Assembly: GCA_903821605.1 (NCBI GenBank)
Contig: CAIJLZ010000012.1
Coordinates: forward strand, 91,927 to 155,926
DNA: 64,000 bases
Direction of reading: 5' to 3'
From: an uncultured Sphingomonadales bacterium
GTDB taxonomy: Bacteria; Pseudomonadota; Alphaproteobacteria; Sphingomonadales; Sphingomonadaceae
Each line of letters starts with the position of its first letter. Positions within the stretch are counted from its first letter, which is position 1. Positions 10,705 through 29,789 of the stretch are shown here, piece by piece. A program made the translations under genes and the position numbers. The notes below the pieces were generated by a model. It was given only the letters and a program-made list of their open reading frames with translations, ran no database searches and was not told where the DNA came from.

Positions 10705-10848
10705 TCACGGGCCACATCATCCAGCCATCAGGGGCATATCTGCGCCGGATTGGCGACGCGCCCCGCTTGTCCATCACTACTCCACAATTAAGCTTATGGC
10801 TCGTCCCGGTCGTTACCGGCATATGAAGGGCGAGGAGTAAGTTGCGTC

Positions 10849-12294
10849 GTGCGTTATCGGTTGTTCACCGTCACCTTTATCGGGCTGGCCCTGTCCACCT
10901 TATTGGGCGCGCTGGCGATGGCCGCCGTGTTGTCACTCAATCTGACGCGCGGGTTCAACGATTATCTGGCCGCCCGCGACCGCGAGTTCGTGGAACGCGC
11001 GGCCGACATTCTGATCGCGGCGGCGCGCACCCATCTTGCCGAACGCCAGCCCAACCAACCCCCGCCCGATCTCGCCAGCTTGTTGCGTGATCCACGGCTT
11101 GATCTCCCGCCCTTTCGCGCTGATCAGGGCAAGCCCCCGGAAATGTTCCCCGGGCAACAAGCCCATCTGCCGCCGCCCGAACTCGTCATCACCCGGTTGA
11201 TCGTGATGGACGCGCGCGGGCGACGGCTGGCCGGACCATTTCTGCCACCGGCGCGCTTGATGCCCGCCAACATCATCCGGCGTGATCTGGTGGTCGATGG
11301 GGAAATGCTCGGCACCTTGCTGGTGTTGCCGCGCGGCCCGGTACCCAGCGGGGTGGACACCAATTTCCTCCACTCGCAACATCGCCGCGCCGCCCTGCTG
11401 GTGCTGCTGCTCGGGCTGTTCAGCCTGCTGCCCGCGACGCTGATCGCGCGCCGGGGGTCAGGGCTGGTCCGCAATATCCGCTCGGCAACAGGCGCGATCA
11501 GCCGAGGCGACTACGACATTCGCGTGGCACCCAGCCGGATCCGGGAAATTGGCTCGATCTCGGACAATATCAACGACATGGCTCGCAGCCTGTCCCGGCT
11601 TGAAGCCACCCGCCGCCGCATGTTGGCCGAAATCTCGCATGAATTGCGAACCCCGCTGGCGGCGATGCGCGGCGAGATTGACGCGCTGGTCGATGGCGTC
11701 CGGCCGCTGCGACCGCAGGCGATGGTCTCCTTGCAGGAAGATGTCATGCAACTCGGCCAGTTGGTCGACGATCTCCATCTTTTGGCGCTGGCCGATCTCG
11801 CCGCCCTGCCCTGTCGGTTCGACACGGTGGAGGTCCTCGCCTTGTGCCGCGCCGCCATGGGCCGCATCGCGCCACAGGCGGAACGTGCCGGGATCGACAT
11901 GGTGCTGAACACGCCGAAGCTGGACGAACTGGCCGCCCGCTGGGACGCGGCGCGGATGCGTCAATTGTTCGGTAATCTGCTGGGCAACAGCCTTGCCTAT
12001 ACCTCCGCGCCCGGCCGGGTTGAAATGACGCTCGCGCTACGGGACCAGAAAATCATGATCCTTGTCGATGACAGCCCGCCCGGCGTCCCGGTCGATCAGC
12101 GCGCCCATTTGTTTGAGCCGCTGTTTCGCGGCGATCCGGCGCGCAGCCGTGCCACCGGCGGTAGTGGGCTTGGACTGTCGATCAGCACGGCCATTGTGCA
12201 GGCCCATGGCGGGACGATCGACGCCGCGGAGTCCCCGCTTGGCGGGCTGCGTATCGCCATCACCCTACCGCTTGATCCGGAACATCGCGCATGA
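10849..12294 (+). CDS. Sensor histidine kinase (two TM, HAMP, HisKA, HATPase), BaeS-like
   Basis: EISHELRTPLAAMRGEID H-box; GSGLGLSIS G-box; GTG start with GAGGAG RBS. Confidence 0.9.
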   Translation: MRYRLFTVTFIGLALSTLLGALAMAAVLSLNLTRGFNDYLAARDREFVERAADILIAAARTHLAERQPNQPPPDLASLLRDPRLDLPPFRADQGKPPEMFPGQQAHLPPPELVITRLIVMDARGRRLAGPFLPPARLMPANIIRRDLVVDGEMLGTLLVLPRGPVPSGVDTNFLHSQHRRAALLVLLLGLFSLLPATLIARRGSGLVRNIRSATGAISRGDYDIRVAPSRIREIGSISDNINDMARSLSRLEATRRRMLAEISHELRTPLAAMRGEIDALVDGVRPLRPQAMVSLQEDVMQLGQLVDDLHLLALADLAALPCRFDTVEVLALCRAAMGRIAPQAERAGIDMVLNTPKLDELAARWDAARMRQLFGNLLGNSLAYTSAPGRVEMTLALRDQKIMILVDDSPPGVPVDQRAHLFEPLFRGDPARSRATGGSGLGLSISTAIVQAHGGTIDAAESPLGGLRIAITLPLDPEHRA

Positions 12295-12980
12295 CCGAGA
12301 CTAAGCCCTATCGCATCTTCGTCGTCGAGGATGACGCCAAGATCGCTGCGGTGTTGCACGATTATCTCCACGCCGATGGCTATCGCCCCGAGGTATTTCC
12401 GGATGGGCGGCAGCTTGTCACCGCCGTTCGGGACGATCCGCCTGATGCGATCATCCTCGACCTGATGCTGCCCGGCACCGATGGGTTGCAACTATGCTAT
12501 CAACTCCGCGCCTTTTCGGCGGTCCCGATCCTGATGCTGACGGCGCGTGTTGATGAGGCCGACCGGTTGCGCGGGCTTGATGGCGGGGCGGATGACTATG
12601 TGTGCAAGCCCTTCAGCGCGCGTGAAGTGATCGCCCGCATCGCCGCGCTCATTCGCCGGGTAGAGGGTCGGGTGGTCAACGAACAGGCCCCCGAACATGG
12701 CTATGCGGTCGACACTCTGGGGCAGCGGGTGGCATGGGCCGGGCATTGGCTGGGGCTGTCACCGTCCGAACATGCGATCCTTGGCCCGATGATGAAGCAA
12801 CCGGGCCGGGTCTTCACCCGCGACCAGTTGCTCGAAAAGCTGCGCGATGGCGCGCTGGATACGTCGGATCGCGCCATCGACAGCCATATCAAAAACATCC
12901 GCAAGAAAATCTGGGTGGTCGACCCCGACGCCCGGTGCATCGTCTCGGTCTATGGGGTCGGCTATCGGTTCGACCCCTAA
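12291..12980 (+). CDS. OmpR-family response regulator
   Basis: FVVEDDAKIAAVL, ILDLMLPGTDG, winged-helix C-terminus DRAIDSHIKNIRKKI; ATGA overlap with the kinase gene. Confidence 0.93.
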   Translation: MTETKPYRIFVVEDDAKIAAVLHDYLHADGYRPEVFPDGRQLVTAVRDDPPDAIILDLMLPGTDGLQLCYQLRAFSAVPILMLTARVDEADRLRGLDGGADDYVCKPFSAREVIARIAALIRRVEGRVVNEQAPEHGYAVDTLGQRVAWAGHWLGLSPSEHAILGPMMKQPGRVFTRDQLLEKLRDGALDTSDRAIDSHIKNIRKKIWVVDPDARCIVSVYGVGYRFDP

Positions 12981-12994
12981 GCACCCATCTCCCC

Positions 12995-14155
12995 TCAGCG
13001 ATACAGATCGATCAGCGGCCCCATGCGGGTCGCCAGCATGATCGCCGCCAATAGACAGGCCAGCGCCGAAGCGCCGCGCGTGACACTGGTCCCGACCGCT
13101 CCCGCACGGTCGCCGCCCAGCCGCCGACCCAGCAACACCAATCCGACCGGCAGCAGGAGAAAGGCAAACTGGCCGATCTCCACCCCCAGGTTGAAGCCGC
13201 CCAACGTCGCCAGCCGATACTGGCTGGTCAGCCCCATTTGTTCGAGCGCCGACGCGAAGCCAAGGCCGTGCAACAGGCCACAGGCAAAAACAATGGCCGT
13301 GCGCCCCTTCAGCCGCGTCCCCCAGCCCAACAGGTTAAGCGCCCCCATCAACAAGATGCTGAAGGCGATGGCCGGCTCAATCACCGCCGAGGGCAGGCGC
13401 ACCAAGCCGAAGGCGGCGAGCGTCAGCGTCACGCTATGCGCGAGGGTAAAGCTGGTGATGACCCCGATCCAATAGCGCCAAGTCGATCCCGCGACCACGA
13501 TCGTCATCAGAAACAGCAAATGATCATAACCACCCAGAATATGGGTGATGCCGGTGCGGATGAAATCGCCAAAGGCCGCCCATGCGCCGCGAAACAAAAG
13601 ATGCGTGCCATGATCGGGCGTCAGCAAGGCAAGATCGACCTCATCACCCCGACGCGCCCGCAACGTGATCTGCCGTTCATCCGCGCCGCTGCCGAACAGG
13701 TCGGTCGTCACCATGACCTTGGCGGGCGGCCGCACAAAGCGCACCCCCGACAGGATCACAAGATCGGGGGATGGCGCCGCACTCGGTAACGTAACCGATC
13801 CCCCCACCACCGGGTCATCCGGCAACATGATCCAGACAAAGCCGGTCTTGGTCGGCCCATCGGGTGACGACACGCGGAAGCGGCGGCTGAACTGGGCGGT
13901 GATCGAACCGCGTCCCCGGTCCAGTTCGACCGGCGAAATCGCGCCGTCGCGGTTGGTATCGGCGCCCGCAAGCGCCGATACCGGGACCGAAATGACAAGA
14001 TAGCCCTTGTCACCCAACAGGTTAAGGGTGGCATTCTGGCGCGGGAGCATATGCGCCCGCGCCGGGATCGCCAGCAGGCCGACCATGATCAGCATCATGG
14101 CCAATAGCCAGCGGACCGCCACGAACGGCCGCTGACGATCCGATGCCACCATCAT
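12995..14155 (-). CDS. HupE/UreJ-like membrane protein with N-terminal periplasmic domain
   Basis: Signal peptide, ectodomain, then multi-TM region with GITHILGGYDHLLFLMTIV, FTLAHSVTLTLAAFG, and GLLHGLGFA. Confidence 0.85.
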   Translation of the reverse strand: MMVASDRQRPFVAVRWLLAMMLIMVGLLAIPARAHMLPRQNATLNLLGDKGYLVISVPVSALAGADTNRDGAISPVELDRGRGSITAQFSRRFRVSSPDGPTKTGFVWIMLPDDPVVGGSVTLPSAAPSPDLVILSGVRFVRPPAKVMVTTDLFGSGADERQITLRARRGDEVDLALLTPDHGTHLLFRGAWAAFGDFIRTGITHILGGYDHLLFLMTIVVAGSTWRYWIGVITSFTLAHSVTLTLAAFGLVRLPSAVIEPAIAFSILLMGALNLLGWGTRLKGRTAIVFACGLLHGLGFASALEQMGLTSQYRLATLGGFNLGVEIGQFAFLLLPVGLVLLGRRLGGDRAGAVGTSVTRGASALACLLAAIMLATRMGPLIDLYR

Positions 14156-15168
14156 GGTTGCAGCTTACCCTTCAGGCAGCGCCCGATATAGGGGTAAGTA
14201 TCGGTGATCATGTAATAATAAATGCCCTTGGGGAATTCCGGCGTCACCCCGGTGCGGCCATTGCATTCATCGAGATCACCACTGCCCGCCGAATAGCTAT
14301 AGTCTTCGGCAAATGTGCCCAACGGCGCCCAATCAGTGGAGGCCCGACCGGAATCCGCGACCGTGTCGATCTTGAAACTGCCGGTGCATTTTTTCAGGCC
14401 GCTGGTCGAGTCACTTGCCGTCGTGTAGCAATAACGGGCATAAATCGGATAACCATCCGATGCCCAGCCGACGAGCAACATCTTCGGATTGGCTTCCGAC
14501 ACGGCGGCATCGGTCAGCAGGGCCTCGGGCATGCCATGGTAATGATAAGACCCATTGGGCTGCACATGCGCATTGTTGCTATCGGTGCCAAAGCTGAAAA
14601 TTTGCGTCGGCTGGATCGCTTCCAACAGCGAACCCGTGCCGCCATCCGGGTTGCAACCCGCTGTGCTGGTCGCGGTGCTGGGGCAATGGCCATTGGTGAC
14701 CGGATCAAATTTCGCGCCCGACAGCGTATAGCCAACCGCGAGCATCGGTCCGGCCGCAGAATTGCTGGTCGCTTGGCTCGGCGAGATGCTGAAGCTCTTG
14801 TTGAAATTCACTTCCTTGATGTAATTATTGCCATTATCCGCGTTCGGAAACGTCCCGACCGCATGGTTCGGCAGGCCGTTTGACGACAAGCTGCGCGCCG
14901 TGTCGCTGCAACTCCAGGTCCAGTTGGCGGTCAACGTGCCCGATCCGCCATAGCTTCCGGTGTAGCTGCCCTTTTCCGAGCACAGCACACCCGCCGTTGA
15001 TGTGCCGCCGGACGTGCTTGATCCGCCCGAACTCGTTGAACTGCTGGAACTCGTCGACGTCGTGGAACTCCCATCCCCGCCGCACCCTGCCAGCGTCAAT
15101 GCCGCGGCCACCAATATGGCCGGGGCCATCATCGCCCTACTTCCGGTTACGAACTTCAACTTATTCAT
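14152..15168 (-). CDS. YHYH protein, subfamily A, predicted lipoprotein with Ser/Thr/Gly linker
   Basis: LTLAGC lipobox, Ser-rich linker, YHYHGMPEALL, GDLDECNGRTGVTPEFPKG; MNKLKF start preceded by AAGAGA. Confidence 0.9.
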   Translation of the reverse strand: MNKLKFVTGSRAMMAPAILVAAALTLAGCGGDGSSTTSTSSSSSTSSGGSSTSGGTSTAGVLCSEKGSYTGSYGGSGTLTANWTWSCSDTARSLSSNGLPNHAVGTFPNADNGNNYIKEVNFNKSFSISPSQATSNSAAGPMLAVGYTLSGAKFDPVTNGHCPSTATSTAGCNPDGGTGSLLEAIQPTQIFSFGTDSNNAHVQPNGSYHYHGMPEALLTDAAVSEANPKMLLVGWASDGYPIYARYCYTTASDSTSGLKKCTGSFKIDTVADSGRASTDWAPLGTFAEDYSYSAGSGDLDECNGRTGVTPEFPKGIYYYMITDTYPYIGRCLKGKLQP

Positions 15169-15249
15169 CTCTCTTCCTTTCCAACTCATACGCGACGTTG
15201 ACAAAATACAGTCGCCACATGGCGACCTTCACCCTGGCCCAAGACATGC

Positions 15250-16269
15250 TCAGGACAGCTTCCCCTTCAAGCATCGACCGATATACGGGTAGCTATCGGT
15301 GATGATGTAATAATAGGTGCCGTGCGGAAACTCCGGCGTCACCCCGGTGCGCCCGTTACAATCATCCAGATCGCCGCTTCCGGCCACATAGACATGGTCG
15401 CCATCAAAGGTGCCGAGCGGCGCCCAATGGGTCGATGGCCGATCCGGTGCACTGTGGGGGTTGATCTGGTAACTGCCGGCGCATCTTTTCAACCCGCTAC
15501 CGGCATCGTCCGCGCGGCGGTAGCAATAGCGGGCATAGATCGGATAGCCATCAGATGCCCAGCCGACGAGCAGCATCGCGGGCTGCTTGTCGGACAGGCC
15601 GGCACGGGCCAGCAAGGCCTCCGGCATCCCATGATAATGATAGGCCCCGCTTGGCTGGACATGGGCATTATTGGCATCAACCCCAAAGTCGAACACCGAC
15701 TGGCCCAGCGCCTCGATCAGCCAATGGCCAACCGGCCCATCGAGGCTACAATCTTCGCGCCCGACGGCCGTGCCGGGGCAATGACCGTTGGTGACGGGAT
15801 CGAACTTGACGCCCGCCAGCGAATAGCCAACCGGCAGCATCGGCCCGGCACGCGCCACCGATGCGGCCACCACCGGGAACAGCGGCAGCGATAGGCTGAC
15901 CTCCTGCGCCCTGATCATGTTCGGATTGCCCGCATTTGGAAACACGCCCACTTCATGATCCGGCAAGCCATTGGCCAGCAATGTGCGCGTCGTGCCGGTG
16001 CAACTCCAACTCCAGCTTGCGGTCATCCGCCCGGCGCTATGATAATCGCCCGCATAGCTGCCGCTCTCGGCGCATTTGACGGTGCCGCGCCGCGTTGCGC
16101 CATCCTCCCCGCCATTGGCCCCGCCATTGGCCCCGGCAACGGCCGCCACGGCAGGCGCATTGCCGCCCCCGCCGCCAATGTCGCCCAGCATCAACACGCC
16201 GATGACGATCACCGGCACCGTCATCAACGCCCCCAAGGCTGTTTTGAACGAGCTTGCGCGCGGGTTCAT
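15250..16269 (-). CDS. YHYH protein, subfamily A paralogue without lipobox
   Basis: YHYHGMPEALL, WASDGYPIYARYCYRR, GDLDDCNGRTGVTPEFPHG; N-terminal hydrophobic segment. Confidence 0.9.
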   Translation of the reverse strand: MNPRASSFKTALGALMTVPVIVIGVLMLGDIGGGGGNAPAVAAVAGANGGANGGEDGATRRGTVKCAESGSYAGDYHSAGRMTASWSWSCTGTTRTLLANGLPDHEVGVFPNAGNPNMIRAQEVSLSLPLFPVVAASVARAGPMLPVGYSLAGVKFDPVTNGHCPGTAVGREDCSLDGPVGHWLIEALGQSVFDFGVDANNAHVQPSGAYHYHGMPEALLARAGLSDKQPAMLLVGWASDGYPIYARYCYRRADDAGSGLKRCAGSYQINPHSAPDRPSTHWAPLGTFDGDHVYVAGSGDLDDCNGRTGVTPEFPHGTYYYIITDSYPYIGRCLKGKLS

Positions 16270-16271
16270 GC

Positions 16272-17324
16272 TCAGCCCGTCCGTTTCATACTGCTGGCCA
16301 CCGCGCCCGTGACGCAGACCGTGGTATAAGGAAAGCTGTTGCTGCTGTGATAATGATAGCCCAGCGCCGTGGTGCTATGGCCTTGGCAATTGTCCAGCGT
16401 GCCCGCCGCACTGCCATCTGGTTCGGTTGCGCCGTAGACCGGAAAGCCATCGAACATGAAACCATAGATTTTGGTCTTGGCATCCGGCACTCCCGGCACA
16501 TCACGCGCCCGGTGGTAGTGATAATCATAGGCGAAACCGGTATGGCCGCCATAGCTGTCAAGCGGTGCCAAATTGCGGAAGGCCGTGATCCGGGCCACGG
16601 GTTCGGGCGGGAACAACAGAATGCCGTCAAGCGCAATCCCCGCGCCCGGCAGGCTGGTCACCGCCGTGTTGCTTGACGCGACCTTCGGGGTTGCGGGTAT
16701 CTCGATCGTCATCGTCTTGGCGGTGGGTGCCGCCTGGATGCAATGGTTGACGATGCCGGAGGTCTCCGCCTGCGCATAGGTCCAGTTATTGACCTCCTGC
16801 GTCGCGATCTTGTCCAACTCGGCATCGGTGGTGATGTTGACGCTGCCATCGGCATTGACGATCGACCAGCCGAGACGGCTATCCAGCGTCTTGAGCCAAG
16901 CGACCGTGACCTGCACCTCTTCATCCTTGCCGGACGGGTTCTTCAAATTCGCTACGTCATCGACGAAATAGCCCCCCGGTGCGGCATCGCTCGTCGGGCA
17001 CCATGGCCCGATGCTGTGCGCGTTCGGCATTTCATCGACTTGAAAGCTGTAACAGGTTGACGATGTGCCATCGCTCAGCGTGCACGACTTGGTGGTCACC
17101 GGCGTTAGCAGTTCACTACTGACCATCAGGTCCGACAGCTTGGCGGTGGTGGTGGTGCCGCCCGAACTGCTTGAACTGCTGCTGGTCGAACTGCTCGAAC
17201 TGCTCGATGTCGCGCCATCGCCGCCGCAGCCCGATAACGTCAGCGCGAGCGCCAGCATCCCGGCCGTGGCAAACGGTGCAACGACGGGATGGGCGGGGTG
17301 AAATTTCGAGATATGCCTTGTCAT
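16272..17324 (-). CDS. YHYH protein, subfamily B, predicted lipoprotein with Ser-rich linker
   Basis: LTLSGC lipobox, poly-Ser linker, YDYHYHRARDVPG, MFDGFPVYGATEPDGS; start MTRHISK preceded by GAGGAGG RBS (longer ORF to 17699 rejected). Confidence 0.9.
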   Translation of the reverse strand: MTRHISKFHPAHPVVAPFATAGMLALALTLSGCGGDGATSSSSSSSTSSSSSSSGGTTTTAKLSDLMVSSELLTPVTTKSCTLSDGTSSTCYSFQVDEMPNAHSIGPWCPTSDAAPGGYFVDDVANLKNPSGKDEEVQVTVAWLKTLDSRLGWSIVNADGSVNITTDAELDKIATQEVNNWTYAQAETSGIVNHCIQAAPTAKTMTIEIPATPKVASSNTAVTSLPGAGIALDGILLFPPEPVARITAFRNLAPLDSYGGHTGFAYDYHYHRARDVPGVPDAKTKIYGFMFDGFPVYGATEPDGSAAGTLDNCQGHSTTALGYHYHSSNSFPYTTVCVTGAVASSMKRTG

Positions 17325-17337
17325 GTTCCATTCCTCC

Positions 17338-17958
17338 TCAAACGCCAGATTGTTGATCAACGCGCTGCCCGGCGAGCCGCCGCATCCGCACCCGTAGCCA
17401 CAACCAAGCGACCGCCAGCGCCGCAATGGCCAGCCCGGCCCCGGTCCATTCAAAACCGCGCCGCCAGTTGCGGGCATAAAGCGTGAGCGGCTCGTCCGGC
17501 GGCGTGTCGCCATCAAATGCAAATTGGGGCGCGCGCACCCGCAGCCCGCTGGGCCAGAGGCCATCCAGCCGCTGAAAACTGGTGATCCGGGCGGTAATCC
17601 GCCACGGATCAGCCGGGACGCCTTCCAACAGGAAAACCGCCATCGACATATGGCTACCCGGCATGATCGCGCCGCGGCCAAATTGCGCGCGCCGCCCATT
17701 CATGCGGATATCGATGGTCTGGCGCAAATGGGTGGCAAGACAAGCCTCGACGCGCGACAAACCAGCACAGCCGGGCACCCGACTGGCCGCGATATTCGCC
17801 GGACCAAAGCCGATCGACAGCAGCCATTGGCCCTGATCCTGCGTCAGATTATACTGCGCACCGGCAATCATATGGGCCGCCACGGGCATTGGTGTGATGA
17901 CCGGCAGCAGCAATGCTGCCACGGCCCACCATCGATGCAAGACCATCCGCCTGCTCAT
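17338..17958 (-). CDS. Hypothetical membrane-anchored periplasmic protein (signal peptide, ectodomain, one C-terminal TM, basic tail)
   Basis: MSRRMVLHRWWAVAALLLPVITPMPVAAHMIAGAQYNLTQ; C-terminal TM GAGLAIAALAVAWLWL followed by RVRMRR; ATGA overlap with the upstream YHYH gene. Confidence 0.75.
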   Translation of the reverse strand: MSRRMVLHRWWAVAALLLPVITPMPVAAHMIAGAQYNLTQDQGQWLLSIGFGPANIAASRVPGCAGLSRVEACLATHLRQTIDIRMNGRRAQFGRGAIMPGSHMSMAVFLLEGVPADPWRITARITSFQRLDGLWPSGLRVRAPQFAFDGDTPPDEPLTLYARNWRRGFEWTGAGLAIAALAVAWLWLRVRMRRLAGQRVDQQSGV

Positions 17959-18971
17959 CCCACCCTCGACATGCCGGTCGCAACCGCGCCGTTCAGACAG
18001 GTGGTGAGATAGGGAAAGGCGTTGCTGGCATGATAATGATAGCCAAGCCGCGCCGTGACATGGCCCTGACAACGATCAAGGTCGCGCACCGCGCTGCCAT
18101 CGGGTTCAGTCGCGCCATAAATGGGGTAGCCGTCAAACATGAAGCCATACACCCTTGTCCGCAGATTGGGCACGCCCGGCACCTCCCGCGCCCGGTGGTA
18201 ATGATAGTCATAGGCGAAACCGGTATGCCCCCCGGTCGCATCCAGCGGCGCGACATTGTGATAGGTGGTAATCCGCCCCACCGGTTCCGGCGGAAAATAC
18301 AAAACGCCATCCAGCGCAATGCCCGTGCCCGGCAAGCCGGCAGCGACGATATCGACCGGTTCCGCCGCAGCTCGCGGGACGGATGGGATGAGGATGGTCA
18401 ATGTTCGAGGTATCGGCTGCGCCTGTACGCAATGATTGACGATGCCGTAGCTCGCCGCCTCACCATAGCCCCAGCGGCCAACCTCCTGATCGGCCACCAT
18501 CGCCAATTCCGTGTCATTGGTGATATTGACGCTGCCATCGGGATTGACAATCGACCAACCCAAACGTTGATCGATTTCCCGCAGCCAAGCGACCGTGACC
18601 TGCTTCTCCTCATCCCGCCCGGCCGGGTTACGCAGGTGGCGAACGTCATCGACGAAATAGCCGCCCGGCTCATATGCGCTGCGCGGGCACCATGGCCCGG
18701 CCGCATGGGACGGCATGCTTGTCGTCTGGAAGGCATAGCATGTCGACACCGCGCCATCGCTCAACCGGCATGGTGTTAGCGCCACCGCCGTCGTCAACTC
18801 GCGCCGAATCATCAAGTCAGACACCCGGAGCATATGCGAGCCGGTCATGGCATCAGCCATCGCCATGCGGCGGGCGTCGCGGGCATGTCCTGCATAAGCG
18901 ACAAGCGCAAAAGCGCCGCCGATCAAACATGCCATCAACACCGCCCAAAGGCGGCCAACTTTTCCACGCAC
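17955..18971 (-). CDS. YHYH protein, subfamily B paralogue without lipobox
   Basis: YDYHYHRAREVPG, MFDGYPIYGATEPDGS; GTG start at 18971 preceded by GGAG, alternative TTG start at 19013. Confidence 0.88.
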   Translation of the reverse strand: MRGKVGRLWAVLMACLIGGAFALVAYAGHARDARRMAMADAMTGSHMLRVSDLMIRRELTTAVALTPCRLSDGAVSTCYAFQTTSMPSHAAGPWCPRSAYEPGGYFVDDVRHLRNPAGRDEEKQVTVAWLREIDQRLGWSIVNPDGSVNITNDTELAMVADQEVGRWGYGEAASYGIVNHCVQAQPIPRTLTILIPSVPRAAAEPVDIVAAGLPGTGIALDGVLYFPPEPVGRITTYHNVAPLDATGGHTGFAYDYHYHRAREVPGVPNLRTRVYGFMFDGYPIYGATEPDGSAVRDLDRCQGHVTARLGYHYHASNAFPYLTTCLNGAVATGMSRVG

Positions 18972-19326
18972 CAACGCTACTCCATCACGATCACGCAACC
19001 CGAGGCGGGCCAAAGCCCTGCACCGACAACCACACCCGCAACTGGGGCGGCTGATGATTGCTATAAATATTCATTGTGGAAATAATATGGATGGTTTTTA
19101 TTAAATATGTCGCTCACAAAAATACATTAAAAAACACACATATCGACGAATACCAATTATTCCCGACAAATTCCAAATAACATGTATCCATAAAGGATCA
19201 TTTAAAAAATCAAATTGGATCCTTCATTAAACATTTTGTCACCCCATAAGGGCTAAACAGCTCCATATTTCCTCCATGATGTGGGAATAGCAGACACATG
19301 TCGCAGGGAGTCGGCCACGGCATTCA
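18972..19326. promoter_or_regulatory. AT-rich divergent intergenic region between the YHYH/HupE operon and the T2SS operon
   Basis: Marked drop in GC at about 19060-19260, with operons reading outward on both sides. Confidence 0.65.
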
Positions 19327-19833
19327 GTGACAATCCATGTAGGTAGTTGCTTGGCGTTCAAAAAATCATTTGTGCTGGCGGAGGGATTGATCGGCTGCCT
19401 GTTGGTGGCCCAGATTATCCGCCTCACCTTGCTTGTCGTGACGCCGCTTGGCCCCTTGGGCGATTGGCAGCCGACCCGTCCGGTTCGGTTTCCTGCGGCG
19501 GCACGACAGGCGATTTTTGCCCGATTTGATCCATTTTACCGCGATGTCCCCATGACCCCGGATGCGGGTGGCATGATGGCAGGCCCGGTCCACCTCTATG
19601 GCGTCCATGTCAATGCCGACACCGGCAGCGGCACCGCGATCCTCGCGCTGGGCGATGGCGAACAGAAACTCCTCGGCCTGGACGAGTTGGTGGCACCCGG
19701 CATCCGGCTTGCCGCCATTGCCTATGACCATGTCGAGATCGATCGCGCCGGTCAGCGGGAGCGGGTGTTCCTCACCTCCCCCGACACCTCCGGCATCCAG
19801 CCGCCCGACATGTCAGGGACAGCCCATCCATGA
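19327..19833 (+). CDS. gspC: Type II secretion system protein GspC
   Basis: N-terminal TM, GDWQP homology-region-like LYGVHVNADTGSGTAIL; first gene before the secretin. GTG start uncertain. Confidence 0.78.
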   Translation: MTIHVGSCLAFKKSFVLAEGLIGCLLVAQIIRLTLLVVTPLGPLGDWQPTRPVRFPAAARQAIFARFDPFYRDVPMTPDAGGMMAGPVHLYGVHVNADTGSGTAILALGDGEQKLLGLDELVAPGIRLAAIAYDHVEIDRAGQRERVFLTSPDTSGIQPPDMSGTAHP

Positions 19834-21998
19834 ACCGCCATTTCCTTGCCCGCCTCCCCCTTTTGGCTGTGCTACTTGCGGCGCAGCCGTTGGCCGCGCA
19901 GCATCTGCTCAACTTTCGCGACGCCGATATACGAGCGTTCATCGCCGATGCGGCGAAAGTGACTGGTCGCACCTTCGTCGTCGATGCGCGGGTGCAAGGC
20001 AAGGTCACCGTCGCCGGGGAGCGCCCGCTGTCCCGTGCCGAATATTTCGAGATTTTTCTTTCAACCCTGCGCGCCAACAATCTGGTCGCGGTGCCGATGG
20101 CCAATGGCAATTATCGCATCCAATTATTTGACGGCGCGGCCAGCCAGCCAAGCACGATCGGCAGCAAAGGCGCCTCGCGCAACCAGTTGGTGACTGAAAT
20201 CGTGCGATTGCGTTTCCTTGATGCTGGCCAGTCGCTTGAAACGGTCCGCCCGTTGATCAGCCCACAAGGGGCCGTCACCGCCAATCGCGGGGCCAACAGC
20301 CTGATCATCGCCGATTTTGCCGACAATGTCAGGCGGGTGCGTGCCCTGCTTGACGCGGTTGACCGGGACACCAACACCACCCGGCTGATCCCGCTGCGCA
20401 ATGCCGGGGCGCGCGATGTGTCGGCCTCGCTGCAACAGCTTGGTGCCGGTGGCCAGTCGGGCATCGCGATCGCGGCGATTGATAGTAGCAACAGCATCGC
20501 CTTAAGCGGCAACCCCGGCATGGTCGACCGCTTTGCAAAGCTGGTGGATGACCTAGATCAGCGCGCCGAATCCGCCAGCGAGATCCGCGTCCATTTCCTC
20601 CAGCACGCCAATGCACAACGGCTTCTGCCGACGTTGCAGCAACTGGTCGGCGGCGGCAGTGATCCGACGCCTCCGTCCAACAGCCCGGCGGCGACGGGTG
20701 CATCGGGATCAACCGCCTCCATGGCCAATCCGATGGGCAGTCGCACCGGTGGGTCAAACGGGCCAAGCAGCAGCGCCAGCGCCGGCGCCAACGCCAATAA
20801 CGCGCCCGCCGCCACGCCAACCAGTGGCAGCATCGCGAGCTATGGCCCGGCGATTATCACCCGTTATGAAGGCGCGAACGCGATCATTGTCGCCGCCAAT
20901 AGCGATGTGCAGCGCAAGCTGGGCGAACTGATCCGCCAGCTCGACACCCGCCGCCCGCAGGTTTTGGTCGAAGCCGTGATCGTGGAAATCGGCAATGACG
21001 CCGCGAAAAAATTGGGTGTTCAATTTCTGATCGGCGGCAAGAACATGCCGTTTTTGGCCACCAATTATTCCAACGCCAACCCGAACATTCTGTCCCTTGG
21101 CGGCGCGGCGGCGGGCTATGCGCTATCCAAGACGACCACGACCATCGACAGCAATGTCGTCACCACATCAGACAGCAGTCCGTTCGGCACGACATTTCAA
21201 GAATCCGCCGCCAATGCCTTGCTCAACGCGACCGGCGGCTTTGCGGGCGGGGCGGGCACCTTTGGCAATAATGGCGTATTCGCCTCGATCATCAACGCGA
21301 TCCGATCCGATACCAGTTCCAACCTGTTGGCCGTGCCGCATCTGGTGACGCTGGATAACCAGCCCGCGCGCTTTCTGGTCGGGCAGGAAGTGCCGATTGC
21401 CACCGGCGAGGCGCTGTCCAAGAACTTCGACAATGCCTTCCGCACGGTCCAGCGCGAAGAAGTCGGCATCAAGCTGGAGGTCACCCCACAGGTCAATGAC
21501 AGCGGCGAGGTCATGATGACGTTGCGGCAAGAAGTGTCGAGCATCGCCGGACCGGTTTCGACCCAATCGAGCGATCTCGTCATCAACAAGCGCAGCTTCG
21601 AGACCGTGTTGACGGCTGATGACGGCCAGATTCTCGCCATTGGCGGGCTGCTGAACGACGACGAACGCCGAACGATTGAACGCATTCCGCTGCTCGGTGA
21701 TGTGCCGCTGCTGGGCCAGTTGTTCCGGTCGCGCAGCCGCAGCCATGCCAAGACCAATTTGATGGTCTTCATCCGCCCGACCGTGCTGCGCGACAGCGCC
21801 GATAACGCTGCCTTCACCGCCCGGCGTTACGGCCAATTGCGCGCGGCCCAGCTTGCCCGCAACCCGGATACCGAACCCGAAATCGACCTGTTGGTCCGCG
21901 ACTATCTCGGCACGGTGCCGCCGGTCGCGGCCGGGCGTTCCGATGATGCGGTCATCGTCCCGCCCCCGCCCGCATCGCCGCCCGCGGGCCAACCATGA
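19830..21998 (+). CDS. gspD: Type II secretion system secretin GspD
   Basis: N0-N3 domains (LNFRDADIRAFIADAAKVTGRTFVVD), secretin domain (VPHLVTLDNQPARFLVGQEVPI, LLGDVPLLGQLFRSR). Confidence 0.96.
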   Translation: MNRHFLARLPLLAVLLAAQPLAAQHLLNFRDADIRAFIADAAKVTGRTFVVDARVQGKVTVAGERPLSRAEYFEIFLSTLRANNLVAVPMANGNYRIQLFDGAASQPSTIGSKGASRNQLVTEIVRLRFLDAGQSLETVRPLISPQGAVTANRGANSLIIADFADNVRRVRALLDAVDRDTNTTRLIPLRNAGARDVSASLQQLGAGGQSGIAIAAIDSSNSIALSGNPGMVDRFAKLVDDLDQRAESASEIRVHFLQHANAQRLLPTLQQLVGGGSDPTPPSNSPAATGASGSTASMANPMGSRTGGSNGPSSSASAGANANNAPAATPTSGSIASYGPAIITRYEGANAIIVAANSDVQRKLGELIRQLDTRRPQVLVEAVIVEIGNDAAKKLGVQFLIGGKNMPFLATNYSNANPNILSLGGAAAGYALSKTTTTIDSNVVTTSDSSPFGTTFQESAANALLNATGGFAGGAGTFGNNGVFASIINAIRSDTSSNLLAVPHLVTLDNQPARFLVGQEVPIATGEALSKNFDNAFRTVQREEVGIKLEVTPQVNDSGEVMMTLRQEVSSIAGPVSTQSSDLVINKRSFETVLTADDGQILAIGGLLNDDERRTIERIPLLGDVPLLGQLFRSRSRSHAKTNLMVFIRPTVLRDSADNAAFTARRYGQLRAAQLARNPDTEPEIDLLVRDYLGTVPPVAAGRSDDAVIVPPPPASPPAGQP

Positions 21999-23479
21999 CC
22001 ATCTGCGCGCCCCTGCCCTATGGCTTTGCCCGGCGGCACGGGGTGGTGCTGCGTGCCGCAACGCCAGAGCCGGTGATTGCCCTGCGCGCCAACGCCGAAC
22101 CTTGGGTGCTGATGGAGGTGCGCCGCTGGCTAGGGCAAGCCTTCACCTTGGAACATGTCTCGCCCGGCCAGTTCGATGGCTTGCTCGCCGATCTTTATGC
22201 GCTCGACATGGGCAGCGCCGAGGTGGCCGGTGCGATGGCGGTGGGCGCGGATAGCCTCGACCTGCTCGCCACCGATCTACCCAGTGCCGATGACCTGCTC
22301 GATAGCGCCGATGACGCACCCGCGATCCGATTGATCAACGGCATCATCGCCGACGCCGCGCGCCAAGGCGTTTCCGATATCCATGTCGAACCTTATGAAA
22401 CCGCGCTGGTCATTCGCATGCGGGTGGATGGCCTGTTGCGCGAGGTGCTGCGCATGCCGCCCCATGTCGCGCCCGTGCTGGTCAGCCGGATCAAGGTCAT
22501 GGCCCGGCTCGATATCGCCGAACGGCGCGTGCCGCAGGATGGGCGCATCGGGCTGACGCTGGGCGGCAAGGCGCTGGATGTCCGGGTTTCCACCCTGCCT
22601 AGCCGGGCGGGTGAGCGGGTGGTGCTGCGCCTGCTCGACAAGGACAATGCCGGGATTGATTTCGATGCACTAGGGCTGAAAGGCAGCGCCGACCGCATCT
22701 TGCGCGCTGCGCTGGATGAACCGCATGGCATCATCCTTGTTACCGGCCCAACCGGATCCGGCAAAACAACGACGCTCTATGCCGCGCTCAAGGCGTTAAA
22801 CGATGGCCGGCGGAATATTCTCACGGTCGAGGACCCGGTCGAATATGCGGTTGATGGCGTCGGCCAGACCCAGGTCAATGCCAAGGTCGGGCTGACCTTT
22901 GCCGCCGGGCTACGCGCCATCCTGCGGCAAGACCCGGATGTGGTGATGGTCGGCGAAATCCGCGACCGCGAAACCGCCGATATTGCGGTGCAGGCCTCGC
23001 TCACCGGTCATCTCGTCTTGTCCACCGTCCACACCAATGACGCGATTGGGGCGATTACTCGGCTACGCGACATGAAGGTCGAGCCGTTCCTCATCGCCTC
23101 GGCCCTGCGCGCCGTCATCGCGCAGCGGCTGGTGCGCCGTCTATGCCCGGGCTGCCGCATCGCATCGCAGTTGGATGCGCCGTTGCCCGGCCTCGCCTTA
23201 CCGGTCGGCACCATGGTGTGGCGCGCCAACGGCTGCCCCGCCTGCCAGCAAAGCGGCTATCGTGGCCGCATTGGCCTGTTTGAAGCGGTGCGCATTGATG
23301 ACCGGATGCGGGCGATGATCATTGCCGATGCCGATGAAGCCAGTCTCGCCCGCCATGCTTTTGCCGCCACGCCAACCCTTGCCGCCGCCGTCGGCGCACT
23401 GGTGCGACAGGGCGACACCTCGCCGGAAGAGGCCATTCGCATCGCGCGGCAGGCGGACGGAGAATCCGACCATGGCTGA
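21995..23479 (+). CDS. gspE: Type II secretion system ATPase GspE
   Basis: GPTGSGKTTTLYAAL Walker A, VGEIRDRETADIAVQASLTGHLVLSTVHTND, CPGCR...CPACQ zinc motif. Confidence 0.97.
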   Translation: MTICAPLPYGFARRHGVVLRAATPEPVIALRANAEPWVLMEVRRWLGQAFTLEHVSPGQFDGLLADLYALDMGSAEVAGAMAVGADSLDLLATDLPSADDLLDSADDAPAIRLINGIIADAARQGVSDIHVEPYETALVIRMRVDGLLREVLRMPPHVAPVLVSRIKVMARLDIAERRVPQDGRIGLTLGGKALDVRVSTLPSRAGERVVLRLLDKDNAGIDFDALGLKGSADRILRAALDEPHGIILVTGPTGSGKTTTLYAALKALNDGRRNILTVEDPVEYAVDGVGQTQVNAKVGLTFAAGLRAILRQDPDVVMVGEIRDRETADIAVQASLTGHLVLSTVHTNDAIGAITRLRDMKVEPFLIASALRAVIAQRLVRRLCPGCRIASQLDAPLPGLALPVGTMVWRANGCPACQQSGYRGRIGLFEAVRIDDRMRAMIIADADEASLARHAFAATPTLAAAVGALVRQGDTSPEEAIRIARQADGESDHG

Positions 23480-24704
23480 ATTTCGCTATCGCGTCATCGA
23501 CCCCGCCGGTCGCGGCCGCGAAGGGCGCATCGCGGCACGCGACCGGGAAGAAGCAGGCCGCGTGCTACAGGACCGCCGGCTGTTCGTCGTCGACTGCATC
23601 GCCCTGTCGCCGGATGAACCACGCCCCCGCGCGCCGGCGCTGATCGCCTTGTCGCGGCCACGTCGCCAACGCCTCTCCGCCCGCGAACTGGCGCTGTTTA
23701 CCCGGCAACTATCAACCCTGACCCAAGTGAGCCCGCTGGAAGAAGCGTTGCGCACCGTCGCCCGGCAAAGCGAGGCCGCGCATGTCCGGCGCATCATCGG
23801 CCATGTCCAATCGGGCATTCTCGAAGGTCGCCGCCTCGCGCTCGCGCTTGCGCTCGAACCGGCAAGCTTTCCGCCGCTCTATCGCGCGATGATCGCGGCG
23901 GGCGAGAGTGCCGGGAGCCTGCCCGAAATTCTCGACCGGCTGGCGGCCCTGCTGGAACGACAGGCGGAAGTGCGCGGCAAGCTGATCGCCACGCTCGCTT
24001 ATCCGCTGGTGCTGGCGCTGGTCGCGCTGCTGGTGGTGGCGGCGCTCATGATTTGGGTCGTGCCCCGGGTGGTCGAACAGTTCGACACGGTTGGCCAGCA
24101 ACTGCCGCTGCTGACCCGGATCGTCATCACCCTGTCGGACCTTGCCGCCAACTGGTGGTGGCTCGGCCTAGCCATAACGGGCGCGCTGGCGTTCGGGGCC
24201 GTGCACCTGCTGCGTTTGGCTGGACCCCGGCTGACATTCGATGGCTGGCTGTTGCGGGTGCCGCTGATCGGTCGGCTGGTGCGCGATCTCCATGCGGCAC
24301 GCTTCGCCCGCACGCTTGGCACCATGGTCGCCAGCCGATTGCCCTTGGTCGAGGGTCTGGAACTGACCCTGCCGACGATCCACAATCGGGTACTCGCCGG
24401 GGCCACGCAAATGCTCGCCACCCAAGTGCGGGGCGGCGGCAGCCTGTCCGGCGCGCTGCGTAGTTGCGGCCTATTTCCGCCATTGCTTGTCTATCTTGTC
24501 GCCAGTGGCGAAAGTTCGGGGCGGCTGGATCTCATGCTGGAACGCGCCGCCGACTATCTCGAACGCGAATTCGACCGCTTCACCGCGACCGCGATGGCGC
24601 TGCTCGAACCGGCAATCATCGTCGTCATGGGCGCGGTGGTCGCGCTCATCATTCTGGCGATCCTGCTGCCCATTCTTCAACTGCAACAATTGACCGGAGC
24701 CTGA
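23472..24704 (+). CDS. gspF: Type II secretion system inner-membrane protein GspF
   Basis: MAEFRYRVIDPAGRGREGRIAA start, two GspF domains with TM segments. Confidence 0.96.
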   Translation: MAEFRYRVIDPAGRGREGRIAARDREEAGRVLQDRRLFVVDCIALSPDEPRPRAPALIALSRPRRQRLSARELALFTRQLSTLTQVSPLEEALRTVARQSEAAHVRRIIGHVQSGILEGRRLALALALEPASFPPLYRAMIAAGESAGSLPEILDRLAALLERQAEVRGKLIATLAYPLVLALVALLVVAALMIWVVPRVVEQFDTVGQQLPLLTRIVITLSDLAANWWWLGLAITGALAFGAVHLLRLAGPRLTFDGWLLRVPLIGRLVRDLHAARFARTLGTMVASRLPLVEGLELTLPTIHNRVLAGATQMLATQVRGGGSLSGALRSCGLFPPLLVYLVASGESSGRLDLMLERAADYLEREFDRFTATAMALLEPAIIVVMGAVVALIILAILLPILQLQQLTGA

Positions 24705-24707
24705 GCC

Positions 24708-25175
24708 ATGCCCTTATGGTCCCCACCCGCGCGCGCAAAAGCCGCCCGCCCGTCAAGCGAACAGGGCTTCACCTTGGTCGAACTGATGGTGGTGATCTTC
24801 ATCATCGGCCTGCTTTCCACCGTGGTGCTGATCAACGTCTTGCCAAGCCAAGACCGCGCGATGGTGACCAAGGCACGGGCGGATATCGCGACCTTGTCGG
24901 CGGCGATGGAGATGTATCGGCTCGACAATCTCGCCTATCCGGCGGCGAGTGACGGGCTGCAAGCGCTGCGTGATCCGCCCGCCAGCCTCACCGATGCCAG
25001 CCGTTACCGACCGGGCGGCTATGTCCGCTCGCTGCCCGCTGATCCCTGGGGTCGTCCCTATCAGATCAAGACCCCCGGCGCGGATGGCAGCCCTTTCCAA
25101 ATCTATTCGCTAGGGGCCGATGGCGCGCCCGGCGGGAGCGGCGACAATGCCGATATTCTTGACAGTGCGCGTTAA
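24708..25175 (+). CDS. gspG: Major pseudopilin GspG
   Basis: GFTLVELMVVIFIIGLLS prepilin motif, DPWGRPYQ. Confidence 0.96.
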   Translation: MPLWSPPARAKAARPSSEQGFTLVELMVVIFIIGLLSTVVLINVLPSQDRAMVTKARADIATLSAAMEMYRLDNLAYPAASDGLQALRDPPASLTDASRYRPGGYVRSLPADPWGRPYQIKTPGADGSPFQIYSLGADGAPGGSGDNADILDSAR

Positions 25176-25623
25176 TCGATCCCGGCGATTAGCCGCGGGC
25201 TTCACGCTTGTCGAACTGATGGTGGTGCTGTTCCTGATCGGCATGGCCGCCGCGACCGTGGTGATCGCCCTGCCGCGTGCCGGTGGTGATCTTGGCGAGC
25301 AGGCCGCACGCTTCGCCGCGCGTGCGGCGGCGCTGCGCGACCGGGCCGTCGTGACCGGCGCCCCCGCTGGCCTTTGGGCAAGCGCCACCGGCTATGGCTT
25401 TGAACGATATACCGCTCAGGGCTGGGAACCCTTGCGCGACCATCATATCCCGCCTGCCGACTGGCCACGCGGCACCTTGGTGCGGGTCGATGGACAGCCG
25501 CAAGGCCGCATCGCGTTCGACCGGCTTGGTCTGCCTGATCGCGCCCTCACCATCGACCTGACGCAACGCGGCGAGCGCGCCCAAATCCATATCGATGCCG
25601 CAGGCGAGATCGAGCTGCGATGA
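25147..25623 (+). CDS. gspH: Pseudopilin GspH
   Basis: GFTLVELMVVLFLIGMAAATVV prepilin motif, position in operon. Confidence 0.9.
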   Translation: MPIFLTVRVNRSRRLAAGFTLVELMVVLFLIGMAAATVVIALPRAGGDLGEQAARFAARAAALRDRAVVTGAPAGLWASATGYGFERYTAQGWEPLRDHHIPPADWPRGTLVRVDGQPQGRIAFDRLGLPDRALTIDLTQRGERAQIHIDAAGEIELR

Positions 25624-25979
25624 TGCGCACGGATAACGGCTTCACCCTGCTGGAAATGCTGGTCGCGCTGGCGGTGATGTCGCTGGCGGCGCTGGCGCTG
25701 ATCCGGCTTGATGCGGTGGCGGTGCGCGGGGCGGCAGACCTTGGCAATGATGGCCTTGCGCGCATCGTGGTCGCCAATGCCGCCAGCGACCTCTTAACCG
25801 ACCCGACGCCGCCCGCCATCGGCGCACATAGCGCCCGGGTTGATAATGGCGGCATGGGATGGACCGTACGCCGCCATGTCGAACTGATGCCCGATCCCGG
25901 ATTAATGCAGGTGCGGATCGATGCCAGCGGCGACCAGGGTGGGCGCGCCACATTGACACTGATGAGGCCCGCCCGATGA
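25620..25979 (+). CDS. gspI: Pseudopilin GspI
   Basis: GFTLLEMLVALAVMSLAALAL, position in operon. Confidence 0.9.
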   Translation: MMRTDNGFTLLEMLVALAVMSLAALALIRLDAVAVRGAADLGNDGLARIVVANAASDLLTDPTPPAIGAHSARVDNGGMGWTVRRHVELMPDPGLMQVRIDASGDQGGRATLTLMRPAR

Positions 25980-26587
25980 CCCGACCCCCTCCGCTCGTGC
26001 CCGATGGTTTCACGCTGGTCGAACTGTTGATCGCGCTGGCCCTGTTCGCGCTGCTTTCCATCGCCGGGCTATTGTTGCTGCGGACCAGCGTCGATAGCCA
26101 GTCGGCCATTTCCCGACGATTGGATCAACAGGGCCGGATCGAACGGTTGCGGGCCTTGCTCGCCAATGAATTTGGCACGGCAGTCGGGCGCATCGGGCGG
26201 GATGCACAAGGCGCACGGCACGCGGCCTTCATCGGCTGGCCCCAACAGATCGCGTTCGTCAGCATCGGCGAAGAGGCCGGGACCATCAGCCGGGTCGAAG
26301 CCATTGGCCTGCGCTTCACCCGCAACCAGCTTGTCATGACCCGCAGCCATAGCCTCGATGGCATTTTGCAGGGGGAGGAAAGCACGCTGCTGCGCGACCT
26401 GCGTGACGCCCGCTTTCGCTATCGCGCGGACGACGGCCAATGGCGCGATCAATGGCAGGCTGAACAGCCCCACGCCCTACCGCGCGCAGTCGAATTGAAC
26501 CTGCGCGGCAAAGGGCTTGGCCCGCTGACATTACATATTCCACTCGCCCCGGATGGCGTGGCGCCAATGCCGGACCTGCGCCGATGA
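25976..26587 (+). CDS. gspJ: Pseudopilin GspJ
   Basis: GFTLVELLIALALFALLSIAGLLLL; ATGA overlap with gspI. Confidence 0.92.
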   Translation: MTRPPPLVPDGFTLVELLIALALFALLSIAGLLLLRTSVDSQSAISRRLDQQGRIERLRALLANEFGTAVGRIGRDAQGARHAAFIGWPQQIAFVSIGEEAGTISRVEAIGLRFTRNQLVMTRSHSLDGILQGEESTLLRDLRDARFRYRADDGQWRDQWQAEQPHALPRAVELNLRGKGLGPLTLHIPLAPDGVAPMPDLRR

Positions 26588-27531
26588 CGGCGTTCCCGGC
26601 GCATGAGCGCGGCGCGGCGCTGCTGACCGTGTTGTTGCTGGTCGCCGTCATGACGGTGGTGGCGGCGACCGCGCTGGAACGCCTGACCTTGGCGACCCGG
26701 CGCGCCGCGAGTGGCGCGGCAATGGATCAGGCCCGGTTGAATCAGCTCGCGGTCGAACAGCTTGCGCTGCGGCGGCTTGGCCAAATGTTGAGCGCCAAGG
26801 CCCCTGTTGCCGACTGGATCGACCGGCCATTGACCCTGTCACTCCCGCAAGGAGAGGCTGAGTTCCGTTTCAGCGATGGCGGCAATTGTTTCAACCTCAA
26901 CAGCCTCGCCAGCGATGACGGGGATCAGCGCGACCGCGCGCGCACTCAATTCGCCGCGCTGATACAGCTAAACGGCGTGACGGCGAGCGCTGCTGGGCGG
27001 ATTGTCGCACAGGCCGCCGACTGGGTTGATGGGGACCAGCTCATCACCCCTGGTGGCGGCGAAGATCATGCCTATGGCGATGGTGCCCGTACCCCGGATG
27101 GACCGATGGCCGATCCCAGCGAGCTGCTCGCCCTGCCCGCCATGACCTCGGCAAACTGGCGTCTGATGGCGCCATGGCTCTGCGCCCTGCCACATCGCGA
27201 CGCCTCAACATTCAACATCAACACGCTGCGCCCCGGCCAAGCGTTGCTGCTGGGGCTGATGACGCCCGGCCTGCCACTAGAACGGGCGCGGACGCTGCTT
27301 GCCGCGCGCCCATCGGGTGGCTTTGCCAGCACCAATTTATTCGCCACCGAACTGAGCGCCAATACGACCCCGCTGGCACCGTCCCTCCTCCGCCAACTGA
27401 GCCTCACCAGCCGCTGGTTCCGGCTGCATAGCGTGGTTCATCTTGGCGGGATCGACCTCGCGATGGACAGTCTGGTCGATGTGGCGGATGGCGACCCACG
27501 CATCGTCCAGCGGCGACGGGAGACCATGTGA
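26584..27531 (+). CDS. gspK: Type II secretion system protein GspK
   Basis: ERGAALLTVLLLVAVMTVVAATAL, large pseudopilin with SAM-like region (FNINTLRPGQALLL). Confidence 0.93.
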   Translation: MTAFPAHERGAALLTVLLLVAVMTVVAATALERLTLATRRAASGAAMDQARLNQLAVEQLALRRLGQMLSAKAPVADWIDRPLTLSLPQGEAEFRFSDGGNCFNLNSLASDDGDQRDRARTQFAALIQLNGVTASAAGRIVAQAADWVDGDQLITPGGGEDHAYGDGARTPDGPMADPSELLALPAMTSANWRLMAPWLCALPHRDASTFNINTLRPGQALLLGLMTPGLPLERARTLLAARPSGGFASTNLFATELSANTTPLAPSLLRQLSLTSRWFRLHSVVHLGGIDLAMDSLVDVADGDPRIVQRRRETM

Positions 27532-28667
27532 TGACCGCGCGCCTGTTGCTGAGCCTGCCGCCTCGTCTTGCCGGGAAGGTCGCCCCCGCCACACCAGCGC
27601 CCAGCCACTGGTGGCTGATCGATGATGCGGGCGGCATCCGTGCTGGCACATCGCAGGATTGGCCAGATGTCCTGCCGCACCCCGGCCCGATCATCGCGCT
27701 CGCCCCGGTGGCCGATGTCACGCTGCGGCAGGCCGCCATCGGCGGTCTCGCCCCGCGTCAGGCGGCGATGGCTGCCCGGCTGTTGCTGGCGGATGGGTTG
27801 GCCGATCCCGTGGACGCGCTGCACCTTGCCATTGGCAGTCATGACGCCAGCGGAGAGATGCGACCGGTCGCCATTTGCGGGCGGGAGCAGATACAGGGCT
27901 GGCGCGATTGGCTGGCGGCACTGGGCATCACCGCCGATCACCTTGTACCGCTGGCGTGCCTGTCCCCCATCGCCGATGACACGGCAGGCGGCGCGCTGCA
28001 CATCACGCTTGGCGACCAAGACTGGGTCCGTACCCGTGATCTTGTCTTTCCGGCTGATCCCGCACTGATCAATCTGTTGACAAGCGGTCATCTCGCCGAG
28101 GCCAGTCAGGTGCAGCTCGACGCCGCCCTGATTGCTCTTGCCGATCATCTCCCGCTCGACCTGCTGGACGATCCCTTTGCTCCCGGCACCGGGCAGTTTG
28201 CCGACCGCCGGATGAGGCGCCGGCTCGGCACATGGGCGGCGCTAATGGCAGGTATCAGCCTTGCCCTCCCCCTCACCGAAACGGTGCGACTCAAGCTGGA
28301 CCGCCAACGGCTCGACCGGGACAGCGCGGCAATGGTGGAAAGCGCGCTTGGCCGCGCGCCGCCGCTGGAAGAAGCGGTTGCCGCGCTGGATGCCGACCTT
28401 GCCCGGCGCGGGGGACTGCCGGGCCGGGCCAGCCTGCCATTGGCCGCGTTGTTGCGCGCATTGGAACCACAACCGACGGTCGCCATCAATCGGGTCGACT
28501 GGCGCGGCGATGGGCGGCTCGACGTCACGCTGGCTGCCCCCCGGCCCGATCAAATCGATCCGGTGGCGCAGGCACTGCGCGATAGCGGCTATCGGCTGGT
28601 CATGACGCCACGCGCCGATGGCAATGGGGGGGCGCTCGCCGATCTGGTGATGGAGCCTGCATCATGA
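27528..28667 (+). CDS. gspL: Type II secretion system protein GspL
   Basis: Actin-like cytoplasmic domain, central TM, periplasmic ferredoxin-like C-terminus, position in operon. Confidence 0.9.
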   Translation: MMTARLLLSLPPRLAGKVAPATPAPSHWWLIDDAGGIRAGTSQDWPDVLPHPGPIIALAPVADVTLRQAAIGGLAPRQAAMAARLLLADGLADPVDALHLAIGSHDASGEMRPVAICGREQIQGWRDWLAALGITADHLVPLACLSPIADDTAGGALHITLGDQDWVRTRDLVFPADPALINLLTSGHLAEASQVQLDAALIALADHLPLDLLDDPFAPGTGQFADRRMRRRLGTWAALMAGISLALPLTETVRLKLDRQRLDRDSAAMVESALGRAPPLEEAVAALDADLARRGGLPGRASLPLAALLRALEPQPTVAINRVDWRGDGRLDVTLAAPRPDQIDPVAQALRDSGYRLVMTPRADGNGGALADLVMEPAS

Positions 28668-29143
28668 TCGCATCATCGCGCCAATGGTGGCAGGGGTTAA
28701 TGCCGCGCGAACGGGCGGGGATCGCGGTCGCCGGGCTGTTGACGCTTGCGATCTTGGGCTGGCTGTCGGTGTGGCGGCCGCTGGTGAATGGGCAGCCAGC
28801 GGCGCGGCAAGATCATCTGCTCGCCGTCCGTCGCCACGCCGCCATCCAGCAGCGACTGGCCGACCGCGAAGCCATCCGCCGCCAAGCGACGCCGGGCCAA
28901 AACGCCGCGCCCTTGGCCGAACGGGTGACGCAATTGGCAGCCGAGGCGGGGCTAAGCGGCGACCGGATCGACCCCGCCAGCCATGATGGCGCACGCATCA
29001 CCATCGACCATGGGCGCGCCACGGCGGTGCTGTCTCTGCTCCACCGGCTGGAGGCGGAGGGCATCATGGCCAGCGAATTGAGCTTGCGCCGCCATGGTGA
29101 TGGCACGGTCGCCTTCACGGCAAAATTGCGGAGGATGGGATGA
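28664..29143 (+). CDS. gspM: Type II secretion system protein GspM
   Basis: WWQGLMPRERAGIAVAGLLTLAIL single TM, position in operon. Confidence 0.9.
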   Translation: MIASSRQWWQGLMPRERAGIAVAGLLTLAILGWLSVWRPLVNGQPAARQDHLLAVRRHAAIQQRLADREAIRRQATPGQNAAPLAERVTQLAAEAGLSGDRIDPASHDGARITIDHGRATAVLSLLHRLEAEGIMASELSLRRHGDGTVAFTAKLRRMG

Positions 29144-29787: not shown

Positions 29788-29789
29788 AC

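Follow-up and report, generated by a model that had tools for sequence, protein, structure and literature searches.

A candidate sensor-controlled module for envelope metal capture, combining YHYH proteins with an anglerase-type HupE ectodomain, in Sphingomonadales

A stretch of 64,000 nucleotides from an uncultured Sphingomonadales bacterium (contig CAIJLZ010000012.1; here, the window) carries a six-gene operon with YHYH genes beside a two-component system, and sequence comparison across genomes indicates that the conserved core of this locus consists of YHYH-A, an anglerase and the two-component system. The locus can be read as a sensor-controlled module for metal capture and metallation in the envelope, a reading to which a probability of about 0.55 is given; by analogy with the studied anglerase, the metal would most likely be copper or nickel. 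YHYH domains are known from bacteria, phages and giant viruses, and a search of the literature naming the family found no test of its function. The conserved and regulated association of YHYH with a metal-binding protein whose structure has been solved would make YHYH function approachable by experiment. The sequence-only reading of this DNA, which had proposed an envelope binding or acquisition system, is partly supported by the present analysis.

Organization of the operon

Inspection of open reading frames and start sites placed all six genes on the minus strand, between 12995 and 18971. The first, encoding YHYH-B1 (17955..18971; PF14240, 1.3e-7), has a GTG start with GGAG upstream and is followed by a gene for an orphan exported ectodomain of 206 aa with one C-terminal TM helix and without a Pfam or NCBIfam family (17338..17958), by that of the lipoprotein YHYH-B2 (16272..17324; PF14240, 1.4e-9; lipobox LSGC), preceded by a GAGGAGG ribosome site, and by the genes of two members of the module clade, YHYH-A2, which is exported or anchored (15250..16269; PF14240, 9.9e-64), and the lipoprotein YHYH-A1 (14152..15168, with the ORF open to 15204; PF14240, 9e-61; lipobox LAGC). 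The last gene encodes a HupE/UreJ-2 permease with an anglerase-type ectodomain (12995..14155; Pfam PF13795, 1.8e-39). The tight packing of six same-strand genes recognized in the sequence-only reading was thus confirmed, as were its two ATGA overlaps (14152-14155 and 17955-17958); the remaining intergenic gaps are 2, 13 and 81 bp, and this arrangement would be compatible with a single transcript. The start proposed at 19013 was revised, this position being an upstream TTG and the GTG at 18971 the codon with the GGAG ribosome site. Coding-like, GC-rich third codon positions are found in all six genes, and the profile search that had been suggested as a check returned, in addition to the HupE_UreJ_2 match, four YHYH proteins above the Pfam gathering cut-off of 25 bits (205.6, 215.3, 38.6 and 32.2).

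The two YHYH-A proteins share 55% identity and the two YHYH-B proteins 63%, the latter grouping together in the tree (support 100/99) with Verrucomicrobia copies as closest relatives; these sequence relationships point to two tandem duplications.

Convergent to the operon lies the two-component system (10849-12980), with genes on the plus strand for a BaeS-like sensor histidine kinase (10849..12294; HATPase_c, HisKA and HAMP domains) and an OmpR/BaeR-family response regulator (12291..12980; Response_reg and Trans_reg_C domains). On the other side the YHYH operon is adjoined by a type II secretion operon (19327-30563), in which components C, D, E, F, G, J, K, L and N and a prepilin peptidase scored over the Pfam cut-off; a secretin orthologue, sought in two congeners as an empty-site test, gave no clear candidate.

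Conservation of the module across genomes

YHYH loci were sampled from the family and the class and their neighbours were compared. Six sphingomonad loci carry the module (the window, L043, L045, L123, L124 and L126), and in each of them the neighbours of YHYH-A include a HupE ectodomain and, in convergent orientation, a two-component system. A seventh locus, on the plasmid NZ_CP092194.1 of Deinococcus sp. KNUC1210, has the order YHYH-HupE-response regulator-kinase in one direction, the frames of the regulator and the kinase being interrupted by apparent frameshifts. HupE is full-length at four of the sphingomonad loci and in Deinococcus, while L043 and L045 lack the permease domain and keep the His1 ectodomain, which in L045 retains its own TM helix, together with YHYH-A and the two-component system. 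These seven loci are linked by descent or transfer and hence are not independent observations; the same holds for the related genomes in the counts given below. The linkage of YHYH with HupE anticipated in the sequence-only reading is therefore conserved, at two loci as the ectodomain only. The unit itself had to be redrawn: the two-component system had been omitted from it, whereas both YHYH-B genes and the gene of the orphan ectodomain are, on the comparison of loci, extras of the window outside the conserved core. YHYH-B1, YHYH-B2 and the orphan, being in the same operon, are presumably under its control. The orphan has no relatives beyond itself in the locus set and no plasmid match.

A general link between YHYH and HupE was rejected, as none of 37 class-wide YHYH loci had HupE nearby according to a home-made HupE profile. 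Among the family genomes YHYH occurs in 10 of 401 vs HupE_UreJ_2 in 213 of 401, and the class-wide YHYH genes have no common partner in their neighbourhood besides regulators and, in Verrucomicrobia, sulfatases. Several arrangements were noted in this survey. At L126 (9920-10948) a second YHYH-A copy lies in two frames and is likely a pseudogene or a sequencing error; at L125 (7979-9220) a non-module YHYH-A adjoins a putative dihaem peroxidase gene, recognized by eye from its CxxCH motif; and at L004 (4579-11011) and other Verrucomicrobia loci the YHYH genes are divergent from a two-component system.

The HupE ectodomain and the question of metal uptake

The window HupE has a predicted signal peptide cut ARA|H, which would leave His35 as the N-terminal residue (His1), as in the anglerase Ang-1; cleavage is deduced from the sequence. 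All 23 aligned HupE proteins have the A34-H35 pair, so His1 is a trait of HupE_UreJ_2 more widely and is not specific to the module. The PF13795 domain spans residues 198-341. The ectodomain of the HupE model matched 9GCE, the copper anglerase Ang-1 (E 9.2e-5), and the zinc proteins ZrgA (7.6e-5) and PA4063 (2.8e-4), with a probability of 1.00 each; identity between the studied Ang-1 and the aligned part of the window HupE is about 16%. These model-based matches are in line with the metal theme of the sequence-only reading. Ang-1 binds Cu with a Kd of 74 nM and Ni with a Kd of 220 nM (Franco Cairo et al., 2025; PMC12537917). The orphan ectodomain also has a predicted N-terminal His (VAA|H); its comparison with the anglerase profile gave an hhalign probability of 1.3% (E 0.039), and the only resemblances between the two are their TM topology and the N-terminal His predicted for each. 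Sequence searches of the PDB with YHYH-A, YHYH-B, HupE and orphan ectodomain queries returned nothing meaningful.

The locus might alternatively serve metal uptake, the His1 ectodomain feeding the HupE permease for cytoplasmic import and the YHYH proteins acting as accessory periplasmic or surface binders. HupE is regarded as a nickel permease and Ang-1-HupE has been proposed to fish and import metal (PMC12537917), which, with the complete HupE of five of the seven loci, speaks for import. Yet ectodomain, YHYH-A and two-component system persist in L043 and L045 without a permease domain, and HupE is widespread in genomes without YHYH. Because the ectodomain is kept beside YHYH-A where the permease is missing, pure uptake is weakened and we consider it unlikely; of the proposed envelope binding or acquisition, the metal theme stands and acquisition has lost ground. 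The permease-less loci also call into question the view of anglerase domains as devoted to uptake only.

YHYH proteins: clade, residues and fold

The YHYH-A proteins of the module form a single clade with support of 100/100. Cysteines at positions 66, 90, 164 and 174 are present in nine of nine module members, Deinococcus included; Cys66, Cys164 and Cys174 occur in none of the other sampled YHYH proteins and Cys90 in two of them. The conserved His/Asp set of YHYH-A2 comprises H105, D198, H203, H211, H213, D240 and D302, in columns occupied in 52-57 of 57 sequences; for YHYH-A1, conservation was 57/57 for D198 and D240 and 56/57 for H203, H211 and H213. This near-invariant set is predicted to form a metal site. 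The family had been predicted to be a zinc-binding, tail-associated metal-dependent hydrolase from its conserved His triad and Asp (PMC7824862), residues that are found in YHYH-A1, as judged on residues alone. The earlier statement that YHYH proteins have no established function is consequently to be qualified, since a hydrolase had already been predicted; it holds in that no test of the prediction was found.

The AF2 model of YHYH-A2 has pLDDT >90 across most of residues 68-339. It matched phage YHYH models and had no match in the PDB at E<=0.001, so that no function can be assigned from the fold.

The prediction invites an alternative in which YHYH would be secreted and would hydrolyse the cell wall or outside polymers in a metal-dependent manner, with the two-component system as an envelope-stress switch and the anglerase as metal supplier. 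Besides the published prediction, it is favoured by the type II secretion operon that adjoins the window operon and by BaeS/BaeR as the top NCBIfam models of the two-component pair, though these scored below cut-off. Sulfatase genes lie close to YHYH (<5 kb) in many Verrucomicrobia loci; as sulfatases are abundant in Verrucomicrobia, this link is weak, and the literature search found none treating YHYH and sulfatase together. No hydrolase fold in the PDB matched the YHYH model, and in the other sphingomonads neither a sulfatase nor a type II secretion gene was seen next to the module. This alternative is judged distinctly unlikely.

The two-component system and putative regulatory boxes

The response regulator is present at all six sphingomonad module loci, with a frameshifted copy on the Deinococcus plasmid, and full-length kinase orthologues (40-47%) were found in five other module genomes. 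No full-length kinase orthologue was found in three controls, two congeners without YHYH (G808 and G846) and a genome with a non-module YHYH-A (G393). The sensor region of the kinase was detected in four of 391 family genomes, all four of which carry the module, and within the locus set its matches were confined to the six module loci. The best NCBIfam equivalog matches of the pair were BaeS (317.4 vs a cut-off of 500) and BaeR (239.3 vs 380), and with scores under the cut-off the window pair is not assigned to BaeS/BaeR. Inspection of the kinase sensor by eye gave no obvious metal motif.

A direct repeat, CCAYAWT-N4-CCAYAWT, was found upstream of YHYH operons. In the window the predicted response-regulator box CCATATTATTTCCACAAT (19073..19090, minus strand) has no mismatches and lies about 100 bp upstream of YHYH-B1; a second box, CCATATTTCCTCCATGAT (19263..19280, plus strand; one mismatch), is oriented toward gspC at 19327; and a weak one, CCATCACTACTCCACAAT (10771..10788, plus strand; two mismatches), lies 60 bp upstream of the kinase gene and is not significant taken in the window alone. 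The count of boxes at <=2 mismatches in the whole window is not above chance, so the weight of the box comes from its position and from the other loci. Four of six held-out promoters carried a box at <=1 mismatch, vs 0.0004-0.001 per 150 bp expected by chance, and in held-out tests the box preceded most kinase genes; the L123 kinase has no box (3 mismatches at best) and in Deinococcus it is absent.

At L045 (5415-10153) a held-out box is followed on the same strand by genes for YHYH-B, a MORN protein, SCO1/SenC, a kinase and a regulator. SCO1 is a copper-chaperone family. At L043 an RcnB-like gene is preceded, at a distance of about 230 bp, by a box. The links to SCO1 and to RcnB were each found in a single genome, a different one in each case. 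An exact box at L045 (994-3230) is oriented toward a divergent DUF6152-DUF6644 pair adjoining YHYH-A, possibly further members of the regulon.

The RcnB-like gene with its box would also fit metal detoxification or sequestration, in which YHYH proteins, induced by metal stress, absorb excess periplasmic copper or nickel. By analogy, this could agree with the response of Sphingobium sp. ba1 to high nickel, where a HupE/UreJ-domain protein was the top up-regulated gene and an OmpR-family two-component system was likewise up (PMC5557971). The HupE of Sphingobium sp. ba1 belongs, however, to an efflux cluster, and no efflux pump gene was seen in the module loci, leaving detoxification very unlikely.

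Proposed mechanism

In the metal-capture and metallation reading, the BaeSR-like two-component system would sense a metal or envelope cue and, acting via the tandem CCAYAWT boxes 11 bp apart, would induce itself and the YHYH operon. HupE would be anchored in the inner membrane and expose its His1 ectodomain to the periplasm, where, by analogy with Ang-1, it would capture a divalent metal, most likely copper or nickel. The exported YHYH-A proteins, with their predicted His/Asp metal site, would receive or use the captured metal, and the permease would be a dispensable part of the module. The genes, their conserved linkage, the co-occurrence of the kinase, the boxes as sequence, the fold match of the ectodomain model and the conserved residues are observations; from these we infer that the proteins bind metal, which metal it is, its transfer to YHYH-A, the cue that is sensed and any catalysis by YHYH. 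A more specific version can be offered tentatively, as a conjecture more apt to fail than to hold: a dedicated periplasmic device under two-component control would metallate YHYH-A as its client, copper or nickel passing from the anglerase ectodomain to a YHYH metalloprotein without a solved fold relative, and the whole would be a mobile module shared by Pseudomonadota and Deinococcota.

Comparison with known systems

The window HupE differs from the Ang-1 anglerase-HupE/UreJ-2 system (PMC12537917) in two respects: it is associated with YHYH-A and with a two-component system dedicated to the module, and two of its module relatives are without a permease. The main text of that study makes no mention of YHYH or of two-component systems. 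With the zinc-binding periplasmic proteins ZrgA and PA4063 the window ectodomain shares its predicted fold (probability 1.00); ZrgA serves an ABC transporter, whereas the window ectodomain is fused to HupE and has a DxDxDG EF-hand-like loop in place of the long His-rich loop. The BaeS/BaeR envelope-stress system is the best equivalog match of the window pair, at scores below those required for membership. Finally, the four window proteins fall, above the Pfam cut-off, within the YHYH domain PF14240, phage tail and baseplate forms included, and compared with this family at large the module clade adds four cysteines and a fixed partnership with an anglerase and a two-component system.
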